Assembly (NCBI GenBank): GCA_026709935.1 | Contig: JAPOSC010000051.1 | Coordinates: forward strand, 11,843-75,842 | Direction: 5' to 3' | DNA length: 64,000 nucleotides | From: Thiotrichales bacterium | GTDB lineage: Bacteria; Pseudomonadota; Gammaproteobacteria; HK1 | Shown here: positions 1 to 12,480 of the stretch, in pieces | How positions within the stretch are numbered: the stretch's first letter is position 1 | Layout: each line of letters begins with the position of its first letter | Notes under the pieces: generated by a model | The model's input: the letters and a program-made list of their open reading frames with translations, nothing else | The model's database searches: none | What the model was told of the DNA's origin: nothing | Made by a program: the position numbers and the translations under genes

Positions 1-558
1 CCACTTACAAACCCCGCCCCCCCCCCACACAACACAAATCCGGTACACACTTTCCCACCACCACCCTCTTCCAGGGTGTACGACGGCAATCGGCAATTCC
101 CCCCCCCCCCCCCCCCCGAGGGGCTGTTGTCGATGGCGAAGCGATTCCGGCAGTTTCAGGTGGAAGACAGGGTAGTACGGCAGTTTTGTCTTGCGCCGTT
201 GCAGCCTGACGACATCGAATTGGTTGGCCTTTCCTTCGAGCGCATTGAGTATGTCGGGAAGATCCGGGTGCAATCTGGCGTCATCCTCAAAAATGGCCGC
301 CATGTCGTCGGCGCTCTCGACCAACGAGCGCAGAACAGCCCAATGACTCAGCAGACAAGCGATGGTCGCATCGTCCATTGGCAACATCCCCCGGCGCCAG
401 CGGGTCTCTTGATCGATGAGTTGCCGAGTACCGTCATTTAGGTCAAGCCGACTGACTGCCGACCAGAGCTCATAGTCGACTCCGATCTTCCGGAATTCAC
501 ACTGAATTGCTTCACGCCGCTCCCGCGCCAGCGGCAGGTTGATGACGATGCAACGCAT
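1..558 (-). CDS. Glycosyltransferase family 25 (LPS biosynthesis), truncated at the window edge
   Basis: The frame opens at ATG 558 and runs without a stop to base 1, so no 3' end is visible. The first ~146 residues are convincing: start MRCIVINLPLARERREAI, then LSHWAVLRSLVE and the acidic motif AAIFEDDARL, which match the GT25 pattern (INL..s..R; LSH; EDDa). GT25 enzymes add sugars, often galactose, to lipooligosaccharide at the inner membrane. From base 117 downward the frame enters a 19-base G run (read on this strand) and then glycine/tryptophan-rich sequence unlike any GT25, so the C-terminal third is missing or corrupted. It is divergent from waaA, which fits an LPS core locus. Family call is firm; acceptor and sugar are unknown. 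Confidence 0.75.
   Translation of the reverse strand, partial: MRCIVINLPLARERREAIQCEFRKIGVDYELWSAVSRLDLNDGTRQLIDQETRWRRGMLPMDDATIACLLSHWAVLRSLVESADDMAAIFEDDARLHPDLPDILNALEGKANQFDVVRLQRRKTKLPYYPVFHLKLPESLRHRQQPLGGGGGGELPIAVVHPGRGWWWESVYRICVVWGGGGVCKW
99..117. repeat. Homopolymer C tract (19 bases)
   Basis: Nineteen consecutive C (G on the coding strand of the GT25 gene) interrupt that gene. A second C-rich stretch lies at 12-26. Such tracts can be phase-variation sites in LPS genes, but the position at the extreme end of the window and the low-complexity sequence around it make an assembly or sequencing artefact more likely. Confidence 0.9.
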
Positions 559-993: not shown

Positions 994-2274
994 ATGAGGT
1001 TACTGTACACAGTCGTGCTGTGTCTTGTCGTCCCACTCATCGTGGCACGGCTCATGTCGCGGGGGTTCCGGGAACGCGCCTATCGGGATCGTATCAGCGA
1101 ACGCTTCGGACTAGGCACACACATTGGGTCCAGGCGAGGATGCCTATGGGTTCACGCGGCATCGGTTGGTGAGGTCCAGGCTGCAACGCCGATCGTCAGA
1201 GCACTTGAGTCCCGCTATCCCGGTGAGACGATCCTCGTCACAACGACGACTCCGACCGGCGCACAGCGGGCAGTGGAGACCTTCGGGGACTCGGTCGTCC
1301 ATCGCTACCTGCCTTTCGATTTACCCTGGACGATGGCAAGATATCTTGATCGGGTTAAGCCTCGGGTGGCGATCATCATGGAAACCGAGATCTGGCCCAA
1401 CTTGATGGCGCTTTGCCGCGCCCGCGAAGTGCCGGTCGTGTTGGCCAATGCCCGTCTTTCCGAGCGCTCCGCATCACGCTACCGCATGTTTCGCCGCCTT
1501 TACACACCGGTCTTCAGGGGAGTGGCGGCGGTCGCAGCACAAAGCGACAAGGATGCAATCCGACTGGCGTCCATAGGCGCGCCCCAGGAGTGCATCGACG
1601 TGACCGGAAACACGAAATTCGACGTCCCGATCCCGACCGGTCTGCGCGAGAACGCCGCTGCCCTTCGACGTACATGGGGAGCGACGCGGAGAGTCTGGAT
1701 AGCGGCGAGCACGCACCAGGGTGAGGAATCACAGATCCTCGCCGCTTTCGAGCAAGTGCACAACCGATTGCCTGAGAGCCTGTTGATCCTCGTACCCCGA
1801 CATCCTGAACGCTTCCCGGAGGCCGAGGCGCTCGCTCGCCGATGCGGGCTCATATCAGTTCTGCGATCTCAGCGAACCACCGATTGCACGAAAGCACAAG
1901 TCTACATCGGTGACACGATGGGCGAGCTACTCCTGCTTTACGCTGCTGCGGACGTAGCCTTCGTAGGTGGTTCGCTCGTCGAGATCGGCGGACACAACGT
2001 GCTTGAGCCGGCAGCCCTCGGAGTACCCGTATTTTTCGGGCCGCACCATTTCAACTTCGCCGAGATCAGCCGCCAGTTGGTCGAAGCGGGAGGCGCGGAG
2101 ATCATCATTGATACTGCACACCTTGCCCGATCCGTCATACGGCACTTGGAAGACGAAGACTTGCGCAGCAACGCAGGCGAGAAGGGGCGCGCTTTCGTGA
2201 AAAGTGGCCGTGGCGCGTGGGAGCGAGTGATCGCGATGATTACTCCTCACGTGGAAGGCCATGTCACTGATTGA
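994..2274 (+). CDS. waaA: 3-deoxy-D-manno-octulosonic acid transferase (Kdo transferase)
   Basis: WaaA transfers Kdo from CMP-Kdo to lipid IVA at the cytoplasmic face of the inner membrane. The 426-residue product has the usual family length. An N-terminal membrane anchor (about 1-20) is followed by the GT30 signature HAASVGE ending in the putative catalytic Glu60, ETEIWPN at 130-136, and the C-terminal GGHNVLEPAA near 332 that belongs to the nucleotide-sugar domain. The ATG at 994 has an AAGG about 11 bases upstream. It stands at the head of an LPS core locus with kdkA in the same region; kdsB and lpxK, which supply its substrates, lie at 57.7-59.5 kb. Whether it adds one or two Kdo cannot be read from sequence, though the nearby Kdo kinase favours one. 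Confidence 0.96.
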   Translation: MRLLYTVVLCLVVPLIVARLMSRGFRERAYRDRISERFGLGTHIGSRRGCLWVHAASVGEVQAATPIVRALESRYPGETILVTTTTPTGAQRAVETFGDSVVHRYLPFDLPWTMARYLDRVKPRVAIIMETEIWPNLMALCRAREVPVVLANARLSERSASRYRMFRRLYTPVFRGVAAVAAQSDKDAIRLASIGAPQECIDVTGNTKFDVPIPTGLRENAAALRRTWGATRRVWIAASTHQGEESQILAAFEQVHNRLPESLLILVPRHPERFPEAEALARRCGLISVLRSQRTTDCTKAQVYIGDTMGELLLLYAAADVAFVGGSLVEIGGHNVLEPAALGVPVFFGPHHFNFAEISRQLVEAGGAEIIIDTAHLARSVIRHLEDEDLRSNAGEKGRAFVKSGRGAWERVIAMITPHVEGHVTD

Positions 2275-2468
2275 GATCGTCATCCTGGCGCGTGTCGGGC
2301 GGACTACGCTTCTCGTCCTATCAGATATTTTTATCTTGTCAAATTAAATGCAGAAGCTGTTTCTTGTGGAAACTATACGGTAGTGTAAAATATTTTCTTA
2401 TCCATATGGAATTATATTATATCCCTTATTATTTATAACATGAGCACAGTCACTAAGAGATAAATCTT

Positions 2469-3065
2469 ATGAAATTTTTAAAAACACATACCTCTTTATC
2501 CATGCGACAATCGGATACGCATAACGCTTGCTACTATCAGGATCTGCATGATACATCCGAAGCATACCAATATAATAACTGGTTGATTGGAGAAAAATTA
2601 CTTCAGGAAATGATTTTTGGGAAAACTATCATCGAAATAGGATGCGGAAACGGATATTTTTTAAGAGAAGCATCCAAGATCGCAAAGAGCGTTCACGGCA
2701 TTGATTGGGCGATCAGTCCATGTATGGACAATTTGCCTCCGAATGTGACTTTTACCCAGATCGATTTGTTGCTAGAATCGATTCCAAAAGCAGATGTTCT
2801 TTGCTCGGGCGATGTCCTGGAGCATTTCCCGGAAGCGTCATTGAATATGCTAATCGAGCGAATATTGACTGCCGCGCCGATTCAGTATCACGTCATAGCG
2901 TGCTTTGATGACAACCACAGTCACTTGACAATCAAGAAACCGGATTGGTGGTTACGCAAGTTTCAGGAGATAGGGAACCGGAAATTCCATTGCGAATCGC
3001 GCTACAGGAAACGCAGACGCATATTTGGACGTAACAAGCAGATTGCAGTAATCTACTCCCCTTGA
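2469..3065 (+). CDS. Class I SAM-dependent methyltransferase
   Basis: A 198-residue protein with the Rossmann methyltransferase motif I, EIGCGNGYF, at residues 56-64, the acidic residue ending the second strand (Asp79 in HGIDW), and a motif IV-like stretch ADVLCSGDVLEHF near 108-120. The C-terminus is short and basic. It opens the AT-rich island after waaA and is co-directional with the glycosyltransferases that follow, so a sugar or glycolipid O-methyltransferase is likely; the substrate cannot be read from sequence. Codon use is AT-rich compared with flanking genes, a sign of horizontal acquisition. Confidence 0.75.
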   Translation: MKFLKTHTSLSMRQSDTHNACYYQDLHDTSEAYQYNNWLIGEKLLQEMIFGKTIIEIGCGNGYFLREASKIAKSVHGIDWAISPCMDNLPPNVTFTQIDLLLESIPKADVLCSGDVLEHFPEASLNMLIERILTAAPIQYHVIACFDDNHSHLTIKKPDWWLRKFQEIGNRKFHCESRYRKRRRIFGRNKQIAVIYSP

Positions 3066-3125
3066 AGAAGCACTACCAGTAATATTGAATGAATCCATTC
3101 TCTCATCAACACGTAGTATATAGAT

Positions 3126-3830
3126 ATGAAAATCGAAGATATCACGCTCGTGATTACTTCATGCAATCGCTTCGATCTTCTAGAGAGGACGATTCAGTCC
3201 ATGGAACCATGGATTCACGAATTGCCCTATAAGATAATCGTAGAAGATAGTAACTCTCAACCGGAATTATTCAACCGTCTTCGCACATTAGATTTCCGAA
3301 TTATCATTAATGGGCGCCGACTCGGGCAATTGCCATCGATCGATCGTGCATACGAACAATTAAAGACAGAATTCATCTTTCACTGCGAAGATGATTGGGA
3401 ATTTTCGAGAAGACCGAATATGGAGGCCGCACGCCAAATACTGAAAGAAGGAATTGATGATGAGGGCAAGTTCTCTGTGGTCTGTTTTCGTGAGACAACT
3501 GGCACCAAACACAGTCGGAAAGGTTTGTTCAGGGATCGCACCGTACAAGGTTCTCTCTTTCGATATTCGTTCGATCACAAGTACCCTTTCAACTACTTCT
3601 CCTTCAATCCAGGAATGCTGAGACGTGATTTTTATGAACGCTACGGACCGTGGAGCAAATTCAAGAACGAGCGGAGCATTGCGCAGGCGATAATGAGAGA
3701 AAGGCGCTGCATTGCTAGGGAGCTTCCGGGTATCGTAAGACATATCGGAAAGGGACGCAGTCGAGTCCGCCCCAGCAAGTGGAAATGGATCAGAGAGCTC
3801 GCAAAAAATTGGCTCGTATCTAAAATATAA
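3126..3830 (+). CDS. GT-A type glycosyltransferase (GT2-like)
   Basis: The 234-residue product begins with a typical GT-A beta strand and nucleotide-binding loop (ITLVITSCNRFDLLERTI) and has the acidic metal-binding motif CEDDWEF at 87-93, where GT2 enzymes carry DXD. It has no membrane segment, so it should act in the cytosol on a nucleotide sugar and an LPS or capsule acceptor. At 234 residues it is shorter than many GT2 enzymes but covers the catalytic domain. It lies 60 bases after the methyltransferase, in the same AT-rich block. The sugar is unknown. Confidence 0.72.
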   Translation: MKIEDITLVITSCNRFDLLERTIQSMEPWIHELPYKIIVEDSNSQPELFNRLRTLDFRIIINGRRLGQLPSIDRAYEQLKTEFIFHCEDDWEFSRRPNMEAARQILKEGIDDEGKFSVVCFRETTGTKHSRKGLFRDRTVQGSLFRYSFDHKYPFNYFSFNPGMLRRDFYERYGPWSKFKNERSIAQAIMRERRCIARELPGIVRHIGKGRSRVRPSKWKWIRELAKNWLVSKI

Positions 3831-3867
3831 AACTAAAATCTTTATTATTTATTTGAGGAAATGCACT

Positions 3868-4983
3868 GTGAAAAATCCATATTTTTTTCGAAAGATTTTT
3901 TTAATATACAAACGTTTTCGAAATAAGTTACTCGCAGATTTGATTTATCAAAAAATTCTTTCTAACACCGACAAGGAATTGATTCTTGGATTTTATATAA
4001 GTCAACGCAAAAGTTTAGTTTCGTGCGCAATTTCACCAGATGCTATTCACATCCGAATTAACTTTCTCCGAAAGATTCATGGCTGGAATTCTATAGAAGT
4101 AGAATCATTTATTAAGAATATCGCAAACCTATCTCAAAAAAGTAAAAAAACCACGCATGTTATTGTATGGGGAAATCGAGATCGAATACATAATCTAGAA
4201 ATTCTCACGAAATTTTTTCCAAAAATAATTAGAATTGAAGATGGATTATTATATATACCAAAATATAAGAAAAAGAAAACATCTTTTATAGTTAACTATC
4301 ATGGCATATATTTTGATGGTCGTCAACCAAGTGATTTAGAATTATCACTTAATACATTATCTCCAGGATATGCAATTTATTACAAAAATGCTCAGAGATT
4401 TTTGAATTATATTATTTCTAATAAAATGACAAAATATCGTCATTATGATAGAGAAAAAATATTAATTGATCCTGCAGGATTACTAATCATTGGACAAGTA
4501 AATGAAGATCAAGCAATTATATCAACAACGACAATAGGGAAAACTAACTTTGATCTAATTTCATTTATTATAAAATCCCAAGCTATTCCTAATGCTACAA
4601 CTTTTTACTATAAACCACATCCAAGAAATAAGGAAAACAGGAAAGAAATTGCGCGCATAATTTCAAATTTTCCTGATATAGTTATTTTAGATTCAAAAAT
4701 AAATATTCACACTCTTTTTGCTCAGAAACCACTTGTCGCAACAATGACTTCTGGTGCGGGATTAGAGGCTGCACTACATGGATGTACTGTGTATTGCTTC
4801 GGAATTTCATTTTATTCTAATTGGGGATTTACGATTGATTATTTTGATTGCCCACGAAGAAAAAATAAAATTTCTGCTGAGGACTTAGCAGTGTTTTTAT
4901 GGATGGAATTTACTGTCTATATTAATCCAGTATCACGTAGAATTATCAAGCCGCAAGATGCATTTAAAATAAATATAAATTAA
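3868..4983 (+). CDS. KpsC-like capsular polysaccharide / beta-Kdo transferase-type protein
   Basis: The protein resembles KpsC-family domains: IRIEDGLL (about 121-128), HGIYFDGRQPSDLE (about 145-158), LIIGQVNEDQ, YYKPHPRN (about 247-254) and SGAGLEAALHG (about 295-305). In KpsC these domains build the poly-Kdo linker of group 2 capsules. Only one domain is present here, against two in full KpsC. I start at GTG 3868 because GAGGA at 3855-3859 sits 8 bases upstream; a TTG at 3853 would add five residues but overlaps that site. Base composition is extremely AT-rich for this genome. No kpsDEMT or kpsS partners are in view, so it may act on LPS Kdo instead; that is inference. Confidence 0.68.
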   Translation: MKNPYFFRKIFLIYKRFRNKLLADLIYQKILSNTDKELILGFYISQRKSLVSCAISPDAIHIRINFLRKIHGWNSIEVESFIKNIANLSQKSKKTTHVIVWGNRDRIHNLEILTKFFPKIIRIEDGLLYIPKYKKKKTSFIVNYHGIYFDGRQPSDLELSLNTLSPGYAIYYKNAQRFLNYIISNKMTKYRHYDREKILIDPAGLLIIGQVNEDQAIISTTTIGKTNFDLISFIIKSQAIPNATTFYYKPHPRNKENRKEIARIISNFPDIVILDSKINIHTLFAQKPLVATMTSGAGLEAALHGCTVYCFGISFYSNWGFTIDYFDCPRRKNKISAEDLAVFLWMEFTVYINPVSRRIIKPQDAFKININ

Positions 4984-5026
4984 TAAAAAATAGACGATTA
5001 AATTTTTATTAAAAACTCTCATATCT

Positions 5027-5932
5027 GTGAATACAAGAATAATGCAGCAACTCGGAGAACTTTTAGAGATATTCTTCTTACGCTTTGTCGCAAGTAGGAT
5101 ACTGCCTGTGTCATGGTTTCGTCGCATTGATCCGGCCACAATCGCGAAAGCCAAACGGCGAGGACGGCTACATCTTCAGATCGTTAGCCATTGCTGGCGC
5201 TACGCTCATTTCTTGATCTATCAACTTAGCTCTCTGATTCTACACCACAGTGCCAAGCTCGATCTCACGGTGACAATATACTACTGCCCCGAGGATGAAT
5301 CGACTCTGAGAGTACTGCGCTTCTTCGGCGAAATGAAGCAACCGGGTCTTACTTGGGATTGGCGTGCACTGCCGAAGGAGCAACTTTTTCGTCGCGGGAT
5401 CGGCAGAAACTTGGCAGCGAAGAGCACCACCGCTGACTGGGTGTGGTTCACCGATGTAGACATCATCTTTCAGGACAAGTGCCTCGACGTCTTGGCAGAT
5501 CTTCTGCAGGGACGCGACGATGTGCTTCTCTATCCTACGATGACGCGCGCTACCAAGCTCCTTCCGGAAGACGACGATATTCTTTCGCGAGGCCGCGGAG
5601 CTCCGACGATCATCAGTCTCCCACTACAGGCATTTCCACTCCACATGGGACCAGCCTCCAGGGCAACCGGACCCCACCAGATAATGCATGGGGACGTTGC
5701 GCGGGAGTGCGGATACTGTGACGGATCGCGCGTCTTCCAAAAACCCGCGAAGCATTGGCGCAAGTGCTACGAGGATTCCGCATTCCGTTGGTTGATCGGT
5801 AGCCACGGTGTGCCGATCGATCTGCCGGGAGTTTGCCGGATTCGACACAGCGCCAAGGGCCGATACAGGCAAGGGGCATTCAGCGCAGTCCTACGCGCTT
5901 CCGTGCGGAAACTTCAAGATCGATATATGTGA
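5027..5932 (+). CDS. Glycosyltransferase, GT2/GT-A fold
   Basis: A 301-residue protein with the arrangement GRNLAAKSTTADWVWFTDVD, in which the TDVDIIF motif near 141-147 is a DXD metal site, and a C-terminal part with DLPGVCRIRHSAKGRY typical of galactosyl-type GT-A enzymes. GTG 5027 is the longest start; ATG 5042 is in frame and equally possible, and neither has a clear ribosome site. Its base composition is closer to the genome average than that of the preceding gene, so the AT-rich island ends around 5030. It converges on kdkA with only 33 bases between them. Acceptor and sugar unknown. Confidence 0.68.
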   Translation: MNTRIMQQLGELLEIFFLRFVASRILPVSWFRRIDPATIAKAKRRGRLHLQIVSHCWRYAHFLIYQLSSLILHHSAKLDLTVTIYYCPEDESTLRVLRFFGEMKQPGLTWDWRALPKEQLFRRGIGRNLAAKSTTADWVWFTDVDIIFQDKCLDVLADLLQGRDDVLLYPTMTRATKLLPEDDDILSRGRGAPTIISLPLQAFPLHMGPASRATGPHQIMHGDVARECGYCDGSRVFQKPAKHWRKCYEDSAFRWLIGSHGVPIDLPGVCRIRHSAKGRYRQGAFSAVLRASVRKLQDRYM

Positions 5933-5965: not shown

Positions 5966-6724
5966 TCACGCCCCACTACGGTAAGCGTCCAGCAGGGCAC
6001 GGAAATCTGACTCTTGGCAGCACAGACTGGGTTCCAGCCGACGCTGCTTATCCAGAGAGCGCCACAAGCGGAGGATACCACGTTCTCTCCAACCGCGCCC
6101 GCGACGAAAGCGCGCCCGATCGAAGTCGACGAGATGAAATTGCCCCCTGTCGTCCATCAGTACGTTACTCGCGTTGAGATCAGGATGCCAAACCTCATTG
6201 TCGTGGAATTGGCGCAAGGTCACGCCCAGCCGCCTCCACTCCGATTCGCTCAGTTTCCTCTGCAACAGAAGACGGTGCAGCGCAGTGCAGTTTGGAATTC
6301 GCAACGTCATGAGATCGGCTCGGTAGAAGCCGAGGCCGGATTGGATGATTCGCCACGCAGCCGGTGCGGGTACTGGTAATCCACGTGCGCGCATCCCGCA
6401 GAGCATTCTCCACTCGCATGCCGGGCGGCTGCGGACGCGCGACACCCCGAAGTAGCTGTCGTAGTTGAGGCGCGAAACCGCGCCTCCACGCCGATAATGA
6501 CGCAGAACGAAGACTTTATCCTGGTAAGCAAACGACCATCCCACGCCTCGTAGACCCTGCTCGGCGACAAGCAACAAACCCTCCGCCTCAAGATACTCAG
6601 GATCGAAGAGGGTTGCCGCAAAGCCGGGCAGAAGCCTCTTGTCATAGACGATGTATTGATGTCGCTCCTCAATTTCCGCTGGGAAGGGCTGATTTTCGTT
6701 CTGCCCAATTCTCCTGGATTTCAA
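5966..6724 (-). CDS. kdkA: 3-deoxy-D-manno-octulosonic acid kinase
   Basis: KdkA phosphorylates the single Kdo residue of Kdo-lipid A at O-4 using ATP. The kinase fold shows in VGWSFAYQDKVFVLRHYRRGG (split: VFVLRHYRRGG at 71-81), the catalytic HPDLNASN (H180, D182) and HLVDFDRARF with the metal-binding Asp near 200-202. The frame is open upstream to 7108, but that part overlaps another gene. I choose TTG 6724 because GAGGGA lies 6 bases before it; this gives 252 residues, close to the ~240 of known KdkA. The gene sits 22 bases after the DUF4143 ATPase gene and near waaA, its functional partner. Confidence 0.88.
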   Translation of the reverse strand: MKSRRIGQNENQPFPAEIEERHQYIVYDKRLLPGFAATLFDPEYLEAEGLLLVAEQGLRGVGWSFAYQDKVFVLRHYRRGGAVSRLNYDSYFGVSRVRSRPACEWRMLCGMRARGLPVPAPAAWRIIQSGLGFYRADLMTLRIPNCTALHRLLLQRKLSESEWRRLGVTLRQFHDNEVWHPDLNASNVLMDDRGQFHLVDFDRARFRRGRGWRERGILRLWRSLDKQRRLEPSLCCQESDFRALLDAYRSGA

Positions 6725-6746
6725 CGCGGATCCCTCTTTAGCGAAT

Positions 6747-7979
6747 TCAGGGCCAGAGCGTGTTGTCGGCGAGGGCCCGGTGCAGGCGCTCCGCTGGCCA
6801 CACGTCGATTCCGTCCTGCGTGCGGAAAGATCTCCTGCCGTCGTAGACAAGCACTCGTCGCACCATACCCGGAAGCTCGGCCACCGCACGCAGGCCCGGC
6901 AGCATTCCGGGGTGGTAGCGTGGCGCAGACTTGACCTCAAGGGCGACAAACTCGTCGGCGCGGCGCAGGAGAAAATCCACCTCGGTGCGGTTGGCGGGAT
7001 GGGGCGCCCAGTAGCGAAGATCTTCGTAGAGATCGCTCTCCTCGCCGTACGCCCGGAGCAGGTGAAACACCCAGCCTTCGAGGAGCGCCCCACGCTCCTC
7101 GGGCGCAATCGCCCCTCCGAGCTTCTTCACCGCGCGCACAAGTCCCGGATCCACCCAGTACAGCTTCGGATGGCGACGCTCGCGCACCCGTAGCTTCGCT
7201 TCGAAGGCAGGCAGGCGGCTTGCGAGCAGCGTGTCCTCCAGGATGTCGAGGTAGCCCTGCACGGTGGTGCGCGCGACCCCGCAGTCACGGGCGAGGCCGG
7301 ATATGTTCACGACCTCACCGTGAAAGAGGGCCGCAATCGGGAGAAAGCGGGCGAATCCGGGGAGATTCCGCACCAGCGCCTCGGCCCGGATCTCCTCCTT
7401 GAGGTAGAGCTGAACGTAGCTCTCGAGCACCTCGCCCGGCGCCTCGGAGGCCCACACCAGTGGAATCGTCCCCCACCGAAGCGCGGCGCCCAGGTCGAAA
7501 TCGTCACCGAGCTCCGAAGGCGTGAGTGGAAACATGGTTCTGCGCAAAGCTCGACCCGCGAGCAGGTTGACCCCGGCCGCCTTGAGCTTGCGCGCACTCG
7601 ATCCGAGCAGGGCGAACTTGAGCTGCCGTTCCTCGATAAACCGGTGCACTTCATTCAGCAGATTCGGGAGGCGCTGTATCTCGTCGACCACTACCCAGCT
7701 TCCGCGTGGAGACGAGGCAAGCTCCGCCGCGAACAGCGACGGATCCACGAGATAATCCTGATAGCGAGCCTCGTCGAGCAGATCGATGCGCAGCGCATCG
7801 GGGAATTGCCGTCGTGCCCACATACTCTTCCCGACCCCGCGCACCCCCAGGAGGAAGAAGCTCTGCCGGGGCGGGCGGGTCAGTCGAGAATAGGACTTGT
7901 TGCGCATCATATCGTCATAATACGTCGAAAATTGACGACATGATTTCATGTTTCCATCAGCAGAACGACTACTTGGCAC
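6747..7979 (-). CDS. AAA-family ATPase with DUF4143 C-terminal domain
   Basis: Residues 41-150 form an AAA ATPase: Walker A GVRGVGKS at 45-52 and Walker B WVVVDEIQ at 95-102. The middle is the DUF4143-type winged-helix region (SGLARDCGVARTTVQGYLDIL), and the C-terminus holds EVDFLLRR...ALEVKSA, a PD-(D/E)XK-like signature seen in this family. Biological role of the family is poorly defined; members are common accessory genes in bacteria and archaea. The annotated start gives 410 residues; ATG 7949 or the pair at 7910/7907 may be the true start, since the fold begins after about residue 30 and no strong ribosome site decides. It precedes kdkA but looks functionally unrelated. Confidence 0.82.
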   Translation of the reverse strand: MPSSRSADGNMKSCRQFSTYYDDMMRNKSYSRLTRPPRQSFFLLGVRGVGKSMWARRQFPDALRIDLLDEARYQDYLVDPSLFAAELASSPRGSWVVVDEIQRLPNLLNEVHRFIEERQLKFALLGSSARKLKAAGVNLLAGRALRRTMFPLTPSELGDDFDLGAALRWGTIPLVWASEAPGEVLESYVQLYLKEEIRAEALVRNLPGFARFLPIAALFHGEVVNISGLARDCGVARTTVQGYLDILEDTLLASRLPAFEAKLRVRERRHPKLYWVDPGLVRAVKKLGGAIAPEERGALLEGWVFHLLRAYGEESDLYEDLRYWAPHPANRTEVDFLLRRADEFVALEVKSAPRYHPGMLPGLRAVAELPGMVRRVLVYDGRRSFRTQDGIDVWPAERLHRALADNTLWP

Positions 7980-8135: not shown

Positions 8136-8597
8136 TCAGCGCATCAGGCGGGCAGATACCGGCGCAGCCGTGTCGATTCGCGGGAAATCGGCGTGGAGCT
8201 GATTGAACAGTACGTTCGATTCGTACGGCGACACCGCAGACGGGACCCACAGCACCGATGTTCGTCCGCGGTCGTACCACTGGTTGCCGAGCGCACGAGT
8301 CGATGCGAAGTCGTTCGCAGCCATTGATGCGCGGTCGAATTCGTCGATTCGCTCCTGCTCGATACCGGCGGGTATCGTCACTCTCACGCACACGAGTTCC
8401 GGTGGAAGCGCGCTTGTCTGCCAGTGCACCAGGTTCTCCAGCACGGCGAGGGCATAGGTCTCTGCCGCGTGGATGACCCGGCGTCCGGGCCCGATCCATC
8501 GACTGCCCCACCGGTGAGTTCCACCGCCGTCGAACGGTGGATAGCGCGCGTGAACGATTCGATAAGCATGTTGGGGGGCTTCAGGCCGGAAGACCAT
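8136..8597 (-). CDS. RES-domain toxin of a RES/Xre toxin-antitoxin pair
   Basis: A 153-residue RES protein. Characterised RES toxins degrade or modify NAD+ and stop growth. Family landmarks are present: YRIVHARYPPF near the N-terminus, GSRWIGPGRRVIHAAE (Arg and Glu), and YESNVLFN near the C-terminus supplying the Ser of the R-E-S set. A His stands where many members have Tyr in the V.YaaE motif. I start at ATG 8597, preceded by AAAGGGGG 5-6 bases upstream; the longer frame to 8630 lies inside the antitoxin gene. It overlaps the antitoxin stop by 17 bases, which suggests translational coupling. Confidence 0.86.
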   Translation of the reverse strand: MVFRPEAPQHAYRIVHARYPPFDGGGTHRWGSRWIGPGRRVIHAAETYALAVLENLVHWQTSALPPELVCVRVTIPAGIEQERIDEFDRASMAANDFASTRALGNQWYDRGRTSVLWVPSAVSPYESNVLFNQLHADFPRIDTAAPVSARLMR

Positions 8598-9042
8598 GCA
8601 ACCCCCTTTCGATGACCTCTTCGACCTCACGACCGCCTACCTCGGTCAGAGCGGTGTCGAATGGAGTCCGATCACCCAGCTCCGGATGAGGATGCATCAT
8701 GAAGCGTGCAGCGACTTCGGAGTCCTGGAACGCGAACAGAGCCAGAGCGTACAGCCGAGCGATGCGTTCCGTGGTCTCGCTGACCTGGAGGTTGAAGCGC
8801 TCGACCCGCTGATACGTTGCCCGTGGCACGATCTTGTTCCGCAGCCGCACACCGGAATCATCCGCGCGGTCTCCCGACACGATGGTCGTGATCAGCCGGT
8901 CCAGCGCCGGCTTGGGAATCCCCGCGCGAACCGCATCCTCAAGATCTCGCGTATCCCTGATGGGGCGGCCCAAAACACCGGAGCCACCCAGAATACCTGC
9001 GATCGCCGTGGCATCCACACCCATCCGAATCTCTCCGACCAC
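8581..9042 (-). CDS. Xre/MbcA/ParS-type antitoxin (DUF2384)
   Basis: The 153-residue protein has the layout of antitoxins paired with RES toxins: an N-terminal helical region (LEDAVRAGIPKPALDRLI), a central degenerate helix-turn-helix, and the C-terminal DUF2384 domain (TERIARLYALALFAFQD, then FMMHPHPELGDRTPFD and TALTEVGGREVEEVI). It should bind and block the RES protein encoded directly downstream and repress its own promoter, which would lie in 9043-9160. The toxin gene start overlaps its end. Pairing and order (antitoxin first) are standard for this TA class. Confidence 0.87.
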   Translation of the reverse strand: MVGEIRMGVDATAIAGILGGSGVLGRPIRDTRDLEDAVRAGIPKPALDRLITTIVSGDRADDSGVRLRNKIVPRATYQRVERFNLQVSETTERIARLYALALFAFQDSEVAARFMMHPHPELGDRTPFDTALTEVGGREVEEVIERGLHGLPA

Positions 9043-9186
9043 CCTGCTTCACATGAGACAATACTAGGCATTGAATGAGCACAGCACAAGGAGATATGAC
9101 GTGTACAGAGCGCAGAGACAGTCGGTAGACTGCCGGTCGCCGGTCGCCCTACTGTCGGCAGCCGGTTGCGCGGGGGGCGCGCCATC

Positions 9187-9999
9187 GTGCGGGAACTGAA
9201 CAGAATCACCCTTGACGCGCTCGTCACGGACGGAAAACCGTGCATTCGGGGCTTGCGGATCCTGGCCGTTGCCACCCTCCTGACCCTCGTCCTGCTTCTC
9301 TCCACCGCGGCTGACGCCCTCACCAACGCGCAGCGGGAACTCCCGCAGCGGTTCGAGGCGACCTTCTCGCTCAAGACAGCGGGCGCGACGTTCGCTCGCT
9401 CGCAGTGGTCTCTCGCGCCCGAGGACGGCGGCCGGTTCGTTTCCACATCCCGGACGGAGCCGACGGGAATGTTCTCCCTGATCCGCGACGATACCCGCGT
9501 CGAGCACAGCGAATGGGCCTACGCGGGGGACTGGCTGCAGCCGATCAGGTATCGCTACGAGCGCACCGGTCGCAAGACCCGCGTCATCGACATCACGTTC
9601 GACTGGGAGAAGAACACCGCGCGCCACGAGTCCGGGGGCACGACATGGCAACTGGAGGTGCCGCCCGGGACCATGGACAAATTCAGCTATATTCTCGCCC
9701 TGATGCGGGATCTCGAACTCGGCGCGCGCCGGATGGAGTACACCATCGCCGACGGCGGCCGTCACCTCAAGCGTTACGTGCTGACCGGCGTTGGCGAGGA
9801 GCACATCGAGACCGCGCTCGGAACGCTCGACACCGTCGTCATCCGGCGCGAGCGGGAGAACAGTACTCGCCGAACGACCTTCTGGTGCGCGAAATCGCTT
9901 GGCCACTTTCCGGTGAAGATCGTCCACACCGAACGCGACGACGCCACTCTCACCCTCCAGATCGAATCGCTCAGCGGCATCGAACGCCGCAATCTCTGA
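9187..9999 (+). CDS. DUF3108 exported protein with a DUF433-like N-terminal tag
   Basis: From about residue 50 this is a DUF3108 protein: FEATFSLKTAGATFARSQW, YAGDWLQPIRYRYER, a TMDKFSYILALMRDL stretch and TFWCAKSLGHFPVKI, a predicted periplasmic beta-rich protein of unknown role. A hydrophobic signal sequence (LAVATLLTLVLLL, about 26-40) precedes it. Before the signal, in frame, stands RITLDALVTDGKPCIRGL, which is the conserved opening of DUF433 antitoxins and has no place in DUF3108 proteins. GTG 9187 gives 271 residues; ATG is available only at 9166, and TTG 9253 would remove the DUF433 part but lacks a properly spaced ribosome site. This looks like a recombination junction. It converges on the U-type scaffold gene. 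Confidence 0.8.
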   Translation: MRELNRITLDALVTDGKPCIRGLRILAVATLLTLVLLLSTAADALTNAQRELPQRFEATFSLKTAGATFARSQWSLAPEDGGRFVSTSRTEPTGMFSLIRDDTRVEHSEWAYAGDWLQPIRYRYERTGRKTRVIDITFDWEKNTARHESGGTTWQLEVPPGTMDKFSYILALMRDLELGARRMEYTIADGGRHLKRYVLTGVGEEHIETALGTLDTVVIRRERENSTRRTTFWCAKSLGHFPVKIVHTERDDATLTLQIESLSGIERRNL

Positions 10000-10842: not shown

Positions 10843-12480
10843 TCAAGGCCCGCCTCCAATGTCACGCAACGCCTGCGGAGAATCCACATCGACGAGCACG
10901 GCGCGATCATCCATCGCCACCTCGCATACGTACTCCTCGTACTCGCCGATGAGGTGACGTGCGCCCACGTCCCCGCGCACCCCGGCGATCTCATCGAAGA
11001 AACGCCGGGCAAACAGGACCGGGTTGCCGCGCTTGCCCTCGAACACCGGGACACAGATCTCGCGCCCCTCGGCGGGATCGAATGCCGCCGCCAGCCGGTC
11101 GATGTGCGTCGAGGTGACGAGCGGCATGTCGCCGAGGCAGATCACCGCGGCCTCGGTGGACTCCGGCAACGCCGCGAGCCCGGCTCGAATCGAGCCGCTC
11201 AGGCCCTGCCGGTACTCGGGGTTGTGGACGAGGTGCGCACCGGTCCCCGCCAGCGACTCCTCCACCCGATCGGCTTCGTGCCCGGTGACGACCACCACTG
11301 ATCGCACGCTCGATCCCGCAAGCGCATCGACCACCGCGCGCACCATCGCGCGCCCGCCAAGCGGCGCCAGGAGCTTGTTGACCGACCCCATTCGGGTCGA
11401 GCGTCCGGCCGCGAGCACCAGCGCCGACACGTTCGGGGCCCGCGCCGGGGCCGACTCGTGCGACCCGCGCCGGGGCTGGGAACGCGCTGCGGTCTCCTTG
11501 AGCAGCCCACCGACTCCCATGGCCATGATGTCTCGCGGCCCCACCTCCAACCCGGCGGCGAGCCGTTCGAGAACCAGATCGAGACCGTTCAGCGCCGGTG
11601 AGCGCGCGCATCCGGGCAGGCCGAGCACCGGATATCCCCGGCAGCGGGCCAGCAGGAGCAAGTTGCCCGGATCGACGGGCATGCCGAGGTGAAGCACCTC
11701 GCCCCCTGCGGCCACGACGCCGGCGGGAACGATGTCGCGGCGGTCGACGATGGCCGAAGCCCCCACGATCAACACGATCCCGGCGCCGGAGTCGAACGCG
11801 CATCCAACGGCCTCCGCGACAGCGCCGGGGACATGTTCGCAGCGGGTGTCGCTCACGACCCATCCGCCGAGCGCCTCGATGCGTGCGCGCAGCACCCGGG
11901 ACGTCTTGTCGAGCACGGTCTCCTTCGTGGCCGGGAGCCGGGTCTGGATCAGGGCGGCCTTCATCGGCTCGAACGCCTGCACCCTGATTGGCCGGATTGG
12001 CCGAATCGGTGGCTCGGCGCCGAGGCAGGCGAGCGCGCGATCGAGCACCACGCGCGGCACCGCGAACGGAATCACCTTGATGGTCGCGAGCATCTCGCCC
12101 TCGCGCACCGCCCGCGGCGCCGACAGGGTGGCGACGGTCAGCGCCTCGTCCACCGCATTGAACCGGTCGACATCCGGAGCGCGAACAAGGAGCAGGCCAT
12201 CGATCGCCGCGAACACGTTGCAGCGCCCGGTGAACGGCGCCCCGACCCGCACCCCCTCCCCCGCGAGCGCCTGCGCCGCCGCCGCCGCGGCCTCATCCTC
12301 GGTCACGTCGCCGGGGTCGAGCCTCGCGCCCACCACCGCGTCGCACTTCTCGTGCTTCAGCGCCTCGACATCCGCAGCGCTCAGCACGCGCCCCTTCCTG
12401 AACGTCCGGCCCCCAACCCGCATCGAGTGCGCGAGCACGGTGCCCGCCGCGTCGACGACATTGACCCGGCCGAACCTCAC
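10843..12480 (-). CDS. Molybdopterin-binding (MoeA/CinA-like) domain fused to MobA-like nucleotidyltransferase
   Basis: A 545-residue two-domain protein. Residues about 1-340 include a molybdopterin-binding fold (GIVLIVGASAIVDRRDIVPA, then a GGEVLHLGMPVDPGNLLLL stretch) of the kind that prepares molybdenum cofactor. From about 350 to the end is an NTP transferase: VLAAGRSTRMGSVNKLL, VVVTGHEADRV, CLGDMPLV and GNPVLFARRFF, as in MocA/MobA enzymes that link CMP or GMP to the cofactor. The domain pair is known from genes near xanthine and CO dehydrogenase operons, where MCD cofactor is made. It overlaps the XdhC-like gene by 4 bases. A small 9-base tandem repeat around 11985-12010 encodes IRPIRPIR between the domains. 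Confidence 0.88.
   Translation of the reverse strand: MRFGRVNVVDAAGTVLAHSMRVGGRTFRKGRVLSAADVEALKHEKCDAVVGARLDPGDVTEDEAAAAAAQALAGEGVRVGAPFTGRCNVFAAIDGLLLVRAPDVDRFNAVDEALTVATLSAPRAVREGEMLATIKVIPFAVPRVVLDRALACLGAEPPIRPIRPIRVQAFEPMKAALIQTRLPATKETVLDKTSRVLRARIEALGGWVVSDTRCEHVPGAVAEAVGCAFDSGAGIVLIVGASAIVDRRDIVPAGVVAAGGEVLHLGMPVDPGNLLLLARCRGYPVLGLPGCARSPALNGLDLVLERLAAGLEVGPRDIMAMGVGGLLKETAARSQPRRGSHESAPARAPNVSALVLAAGRSTRMGSVNKLLAPLGGRAMVRAVVDALAGSSVRSVVVVTGHEADRVEESLAGTGAHLVHNPEYRQGLSGSIRAGLAALPESTEAAVICLGDMPLVTSTHIDRLAAAFDPAEGREICVPVFEGKRGNPVLFARRFFDEIAGVRGDVGARHLIGEYEEYVCEVAMDDRAVLVDVDSPQALRDIGGGP

Follow-up and report, generated by a model that had tools for sequence, protein, structure and literature searches.

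A probable mosaic of acquired lipopolysaccharide-decoration genes beside waaA in a Thiotrichales bacterium, with a single-module KpsC-type transferase

Are the AT-rich sugar-modification genes next to the Kdo (3-deoxy-D-manno-oct-2-ulosonic acid) transferase gene waaA of a Thiotrichales bacterium an acquired addition to its lipopolysaccharide (LPS) locus, and what would the KpsC-like protein encoded among them do? We addressed this question in a stretch of 64,000 nucleotides (the window) whose start adjoins the LPS gene cluster on contig C63 of the source genome, G000, a draft of 3.78 Mb in 88 contigs that is 95.9% complete. Throughout, MT denotes a methyltransferase gene, GT2a and GT2b two GT2-type glycosyltransferase genes, and Kps the KpsC-like gene and its product (coordinates in Table 1). 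We consider it reasonably probable that the genes form a mosaic block for LPS decoration that was acquired and lies beside a native waaA, between ilvC and a DUF3108 gene, and that their products lengthen and cap the LPS core, Kps contributing β-linked Kdo or a similar sugar.

The original prediction singled out three AT-rich genes at 2469-4983 with a base composition far below the rest of the window, and both the open reading frames and the GC values bore this out. The GC content of MT, GT2a and Kps was 0.429, 0.452 and 0.294 (window mean, 0.659), and their GC at third codon positions (GC3) was 0.49, 0.49 and 0.19. When the whole window was scanned, the sole run of 500-base windows with GC below 0.5 was found at 2001-5500, with values that start at about 0.60 in waaA, drop to 0.27 around 4251-4750 and rise again after 5250. 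Relative to the 41 called genes to the right of position 9100 (GC 0.678 ± 0.028; GC3 0.838 ± 0.046), GC z-scores were −8.9 for MT, −8.1 for GT2a and −13.8 for Kps, already named as the compositional extreme, and the corresponding z-scores for codon-usage distance were 6.9, 6.3 and 13.2.

The flanking genes waaA and kdkA, which had been described as GC-rich, are indeed richer than the three genes but lie below host composition (GC z −2.6 and −3.4; GC3 z −3.6 and −4.3). Low values were also obtained for GT2b (GC z −4.8; GC3 z −5.4) and the GT25 gene fragment (−3.9 and −3.8), with GC z-scores of −1.8 and −1.9 for the RES and Xre genes (GC3 z about −3), −1.4 for the AAA gene and −0.9 for DUF3108, whose composition is normal (GC3 z 0.2). 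The three measures were mostly concordant, and the AAA gene stayed within 2 standard deviations on all of them. The GC content of waaA is 0.67-0.70 in the related genomes G002-G004 vs 0.61 in G000, which marks the G000 gene as low too. Since the flanking genes are also below host composition, the AT-rich dip is the centre of a wider atypical segment. The difference between MT or GT2a and Kps is so large that a common source is unlikely, and the mosaic composition makes more than one acquisition event likely; a single transfer of the three genes was dropped as unproven, given how sharply composition differs between them.

Comparison with 54 other genomes revealed matches to waaA in 50 of them, to Kps in three (29-32% identity), to GT2a in two (one at 39%, and a 35-residue piece in G006), to GT2b in one (G006, 66%) and to MT in nine (41% in G010, the others weak). 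MT, GT2a, Kps and GT2b had no match in any of the four genus mates of G000 (G001-G004); the same AT-rich genes at the same place in all close relatives, a pattern that would speak for inheritance, were therefore not found. The KdkA domain PF06293 gave strong matches in G006 and G008. Among the genus mates it was matched only in G003 (E 4e-13), a strength similar to that of a second G000 gene located elsewhere, and no match of KdkA strength was found in the four. The limits first proposed for the island, three genes, did not hold: the mates also lack GT2b and any match as strong as KdkA, and the inserted block, of about 9.8 kb, begins with the GT25 gene, takes in kdkA and, beyond it, the AAA/DUF4143 gene and the RES/Xre pair, and ends only at about 9.1 kb.

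Gene order at the equivalent site is insert-free in G001-G004. In G002, G003 and G004, ilvC and waaA are arranged tail to tail with nothing between them. A DUF3108 gene is the immediate neighbour of waaA on its opposite side in G003 and G004, and it also adjoins waaA in G001, G008, G011 and G014; in G002 a MobA-like gene is next to waaA, without DUF3108. In G000 both ilvC and DUF3108 are in place, separated by about 9.8 kb vs about 1.4 kb in G004, and waaA is inverted. The right flank (MobA-like, XdhC, pyk and cysS genes) is collinear with the mates, with roughly 62-87% protein identity in G002-G004; we take ilvC, pyk and cysS to be such from their open reading frames, without a family search. 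Protein trees were built for Kps and waaA, MT and GT2a being left out for having too few relatives. In the waaA tree, G000 grouped with G002-G004 (98/94) and then with G001 (97/93). As waaA follows the genus tree, it is native and the added genes are not; the Kps tree departs from that of the host.

Two marks of a genomic island, atypical composition and absence at the equivalent site in close relatives, were thus present. The third, an integrase or transposase, bounding repeats or a tRNA at the edge, was absent within what was scanned: no integrase or transposase domain occurred among the genes given to Pfam, no tRNA lay nearer than 44674, and no repeats bounded the segment, those found around it being short and imperfect. 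The remark that no mobile-element flanks remain is accordingly valid for the genes, repeats and tRNAs scanned. Promoter and terminator scans gave nothing bearing on the island question. Altogether, the foreign composition, the absence from all four mates and the insert-free site in them support the proposal of acquired surface-sugar genes.

Kps is a protein of 376 residues with one module that matches PF05159 (64.1 bits; cut-off 20) and the PDB structure of KpsC, 6mgd_A (E 1.3e-19). Residues E129, Q215, D219, H256, P257, S300, G303, G317 and G325 were each identical in all 56 aligned KpsC-type modules, and W106, D130 and W324 in 54 or 55 of them. The residues expected of a β-Kdo transferase are all present: the QXXXD nucleophile motif (Q215-D219), the Glu base (E129), the His (H256) and the Trp (W106). 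The Asp of QXXXD is described as the nucleophile, with His and Glu as the other catalytic residues (PMC10148158; this and the other articles cited here are drawn on in excerpt). Kps has one module instead of the two of KpsC and falls within neither the KpsC-N nor the KpsC-C clade. Together with relatives from Hasllibacter (37% identity) and Paroceanicella (29%), it formed a clade supported at 100/100 outside both, at a point where the tree program warned of long branches meeting. This tree, rebuilt with the two relatives added and rows G008KpsS and L088_N dropped, replaced a first one in which Kps stood on a very long branch without clear placement; the truncated frame L085 was kept out of both, and L070 was not used. 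A predicted structure of Kps, based on two sequences, was set aside for its poor quality (mean pLDDT 40.7).

Kps was the sole PF05159 match in G000 at its 95.9% completeness, so that neither a KpsS nor a KpsC with two modules turned up; no search aimed at genes for capsule export (KpsMTED) or O-antigen export was made. PF05159 occurred in 57 of 397 other genomes of the phylum, mostly as modules of two-module proteins. The neighbours of Kps, waaA and kdkA, encode Kdo enzymes that pass curated equivalog cut-offs. From this context and the conserved residues, Kps most likely decorates LPS, not a capsule, with Kdo or an acidic sugar related to it. In the pathway that we infer, the GT2 enzymes and the GT25 protein would add sugars to the LPS core, and Kps would use a CMP-sugar, presumably CMP-Kdo, to attach β-linked Kdo (or an acidic sugar like it) by the double-displacement route of KpsC and WbbB, with LPS as the acceptor. 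MT would modify the product and KdkA would phosphorylate the first Kdo. The outer part of the LPS core would most likely be altered in this way; what Kps does, in which order the enzymes act and what MT contributes are the conjectural parts of a scheme in which all these genes would act together.

The identity of the sugar is where another explanation retains some weight. We regard it as rather unlikely that Kps transfers another acidic nine- or eight-carbon sugar, of pseudaminic or sialic type, in place of Kdo. A weak polysialyltransferase match (PF07388, E 2.1e-4, under the cut-off) points that way, and KpsS1 of Acinetobacter baumannii is a related pseudaminic acid transferase (PMC12887879). 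In addition, the Asp that follows the catalytic Glu is replaced in both the Hasllibacter and the Paroceanicella relatives, which argues for a different acceptor. Kps itself retains the Glu found at this position in KpsC and WbbB, a residue that is reported as missing from KpsS1 in the passages concerned of the same article, and its neighbours are Kdo enzymes. Lower still we place a role of Kps in a capsule pathway, as a substitute for KpsC or KpsS: among characterised proteins, KpsC modules resemble it most closely in sequence, but it is the only PF05159 protein found in its draft genome, in which KpsMTED were not searched for, its gene stands between waaA and kdkA, and the tree places it outside the two KpsC modules.

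Comparison with known systems places Kps beside several enzymes. It matches KpsC of group 2 capsules (GT107; PDB 6mgd, 6mgb, 6mgc) over about 280 residues, with the QXXXD, Glu-Asp, His-Pro and Trp positions conserved, and differs from it in module number, clade, gene neighbourhood and its solitary occurrence. WbbB caps O-antigen with β-Kdo (PMC9587256), and its GT99 module is a β-Kdo enzyme acting on LPS with the same catalytic scheme as judged by residues; Kps, however, is a stand-alone protein, and the likeness is drawn from catalytic residues and not from comparison with GT99 sequences. A. baumannii has KdoT, a Kdo transferase of the lipooligosaccharide (LOS) core that is distinct from WaaA (PMC12856342); it was first described as ELM1-like (PMC10936431), with no relation to KpsC reported in these excerpts. 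A PF05159 protein, Orf4, is listed for A. baumannii LOS outer-core loci, in a set that also includes the GT25 enzyme GtrOC36 (PMC10327509); Orf4 is given there as 'hypothetical', and its likeness to Kps is drawn from the family label. In literature searches aimed at single-module or LPS-type KpsC proteins, no title or opening of an abstract described such an enzyme; as evidence of absence this is weak.

Blocks of acquired LPS genes are widespread, which makes the island in itself unremarkable. Its value lies in the enzyme, a KpsC-type transferase with one module that falls outside both known KpsC clades and is encoded next to waaA and kdkA, in a genome that yielded neither a KpsS nor a two-module KpsC. 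If Kps does add β-Kdo to LPS, it would link the capsule and LPS uses of the enzyme fold and would point to a role for PF05159 genes that so far lack one, among them that listed for Acinetobacter LOS loci.

The search for a donor covered genome contigs, viruses, phages and plasmids. The single Kps sequence had no match among genome contigs, and a two-row alignment query retrieved three loci, a strong one in Hasllibacter (37%) and two weak ones in Bacillota. Kps had no match among viral contigs, one partial match (30.5%) among phages and 185 plasmid records, all below 60%; no plasmid or phage match was found for GT2a and no plasmid match for GT2b. For MT, 47 genomes besides G000 gave matches among 398 of the phylum, the best reaching only E 4.4e-6, and there is therefore no close kin. 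The Hasllibacter locus (L134, 7473-11041) resembles the one studied here in that the Kps relative directly follows a double GT25 protein, 27-29% identical to the GT25 fragment of the window, and both genes have lower GC (0.52-0.54) than their surroundings (0.61). It differs in that no waaA or kdkA was present among the open reading frames scanned and in that the Kps relative is a two-part protein with an extra N-terminal part.

Several observations weigh against an acquired block of LPS-decoration genes. No donor was found, the nearest Kps relatives being those at 37% and 29%; Kps sits on a long branch in both trees; the Paroceanicella relative lies among transporter genes and not LPS genes; and the draft is incomplete, with the left edge of the segment spanning a gap of 10 Ns. 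It is improbable, in our estimate, that the genes were instead present in the ancestor of the genus and have disappeared from the mates, with AT-richness a regional feature of LPS loci. Another genus of the family contains fairly close relatives of GT2b and kdkA (66% and 58%), and the whole segment including waaA is mildly low in GC, as this explanation would have it; against it, MT, GT2a and Kps have no close relatives in any of the 54 other genomes, the simple ilvC-waaA and waaA-DUF3108 neighbourhoods are common to the mates and other genera, and the GC3 of Kps lies 14 standard deviations from host genes. An assembly chimera with another organism in the sample is scarcely credible: the 88-contig draft with junk sequence and a gap at the left edge of the segment would allow it, but the window contains no N, composition changes stepwise through genes of intermediate GC, and the AT-rich sugar genes adjoin those for the Kdo transferase and the Kdo kinase.

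Table 1. Genes of the segment in their order rightward from ilvC (positions in the window)
Feature	Positions	Strand	Evidence and remarks
GT25 (LPS-type) glycosyltransferase, 5′ part	1..558	-	part preceding the tract matches PF01755 (E 1.3e-17); broken at C19 tract (99-117) and assembly gap just left of the window
waaA, Kdo transferase, native, inverted orientation	994..2274	+	NCBIfam NF004388 541.9 bits (cut-off 438); groups with genus mates
MT, class I S-adenosylmethionine-dependent methyltransferase, GC 0.43	2469..3065	+	PF13489 E 1.6e-8; relatives 41% in G010, 47% in Sinorhizobium medicae
GT2a, GT2-type glycosyltransferase, GC 0.45	3126..3830	+	PF00535 E 2.1e-5, above cut-off
Kps, single-module KpsC-type transferase, GC 0.29, probable β-Kdo transferase	3853..4983	+	PF05159 E 1.9e-17; PDB 6mgd_A E 1.3e-19; catalytic residues kept
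GT2b, GT2-type glycosyltransferase, GC 0.54	5027..5932	+	PF00535 E 3e-5, above cut-off; relative in G006 (66%) adjoins waaA and kdkA
kdkA, Kdo kinase, start codon uncertain	5966..6754	-	NCBIfam NF002475 211 bits (cut-off 142); PF06293 E 5.7e-29
AAA_14/DUF4143 ATPase	6747..7979	-	PF13635 and PF13173
RES-domain protein of RES/Xre pair	8136..8630	-	PF08808 E 8.4e-20; NCBIfam NF049844 100.3 bits, under cut-off 110
Xre/MbcA-type antitoxin of RES/Xre pair	8581..9042	-	PF09722 E 6e-10, above cut-off; TIGR02293 56.1 bits, just under cut-off 57
DUF3108 gene, right border of insertion, normal composition	9166..9999	+	PF11306; adjoins waaA in G001, G003, G004, G008, G011, G014

The right end of the segment is formed by the AAA/DUF4143 ATPase gene and the RES/Xre pair (8136-9042), none of which was found at the equivalent site in the mates. 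Both are accessory gene kinds often carried on islands. The RES and Xre genes qualify as a toxin-antitoxin pair, being adjacent and encoding RES and Xre/MbcA/ParS C-terminal domains above the Pfam cut-offs, with the NCBIfam models just below theirs.

In G006, which belongs to the same family, the relatives of GT2b (66%) and kdkA (58%) lie beside a waaA, a Kdo hydroxylase gene and a gene that we take from its open reading frame to be kdsA; this Kdo locus differs from that of G000 in having no Kps or MT match and only the 35-residue match to GT2a. The waaA of G006 (L066, 9052-10422) is only 37% identical to that of G000, despite the 66% identity of GT2b, and G006 may carry a replaced waaA. The MT relative of G010, another member of the family, belongs to a polysaccharide locus (L070, 3049-11740) with glycosyltransferase genes of GT8 type, ABC-2 exporter genes and a PF05159 protein of 661 residues, which resembles an O-antigen locus with a β-Kdo-type cap. 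A polysaccharide locus of Sinorhizobium medicae, with KpsF, RkpR, a PF05159 protein and an ABC transporter nearby, encodes a further MT relative, and another was found in Roseobacter litoralis close to rfb genes and transposases.

At the left end, ilvC terminates at contig base 11157, 686 bases to the left of the window, and its linkage to the segment spans the gap of 10 Ns. The GT25 gene is broken there at a C run, of lengths 18 and 19 on the two sides of the gap and with the same flank on both. The part after the run has no Pfam match, so that its membership in the GT25 gene is a reading only. The gap region itself (contig C63, 11779-11959; L052) shows a duplicated 5′ flank, a run of 36 G and the 10 Ns beside the C18-C19 run, together with a stretch that we take to be a garbled sequencing adapter. 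It is an assembly break at a long homopolymer and possibly a phase-variable tract, and the C19 tract hints at phase variation of GT25. Phase variation by such tracts is well documented in Neisseria.

Runs of at least 13 G were present in all five genomes of the genus (G000-G004) and in G005, G006 and G008, and in none of 11 other relatives. Counted once per tract and strand, there were 15 in G004 and 8 in G002, both single-contig genomes, and 17 in G000, three of them at the GT25 gap. All listed tracts were fetched for G002 and G004 (loci within L178-L197), and they included sites with and without long open frames on either side. It is a tentative and rather doubtful extension of these data that Kps represents a third, uncharacterised KpsC-type branch acting on LPS and not capsule, and that it forms a switchable module with a poly-G phase-variable GT25 in a genus rich in long poly-G tracts. 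Switching by slippage would fit the poly-G/C tracts, without being proved by them, and the tracts mark a candidate genus-wide set of switchable genes. Some of the G runs in the genus (L178-L197) interrupt apparent coding frames.

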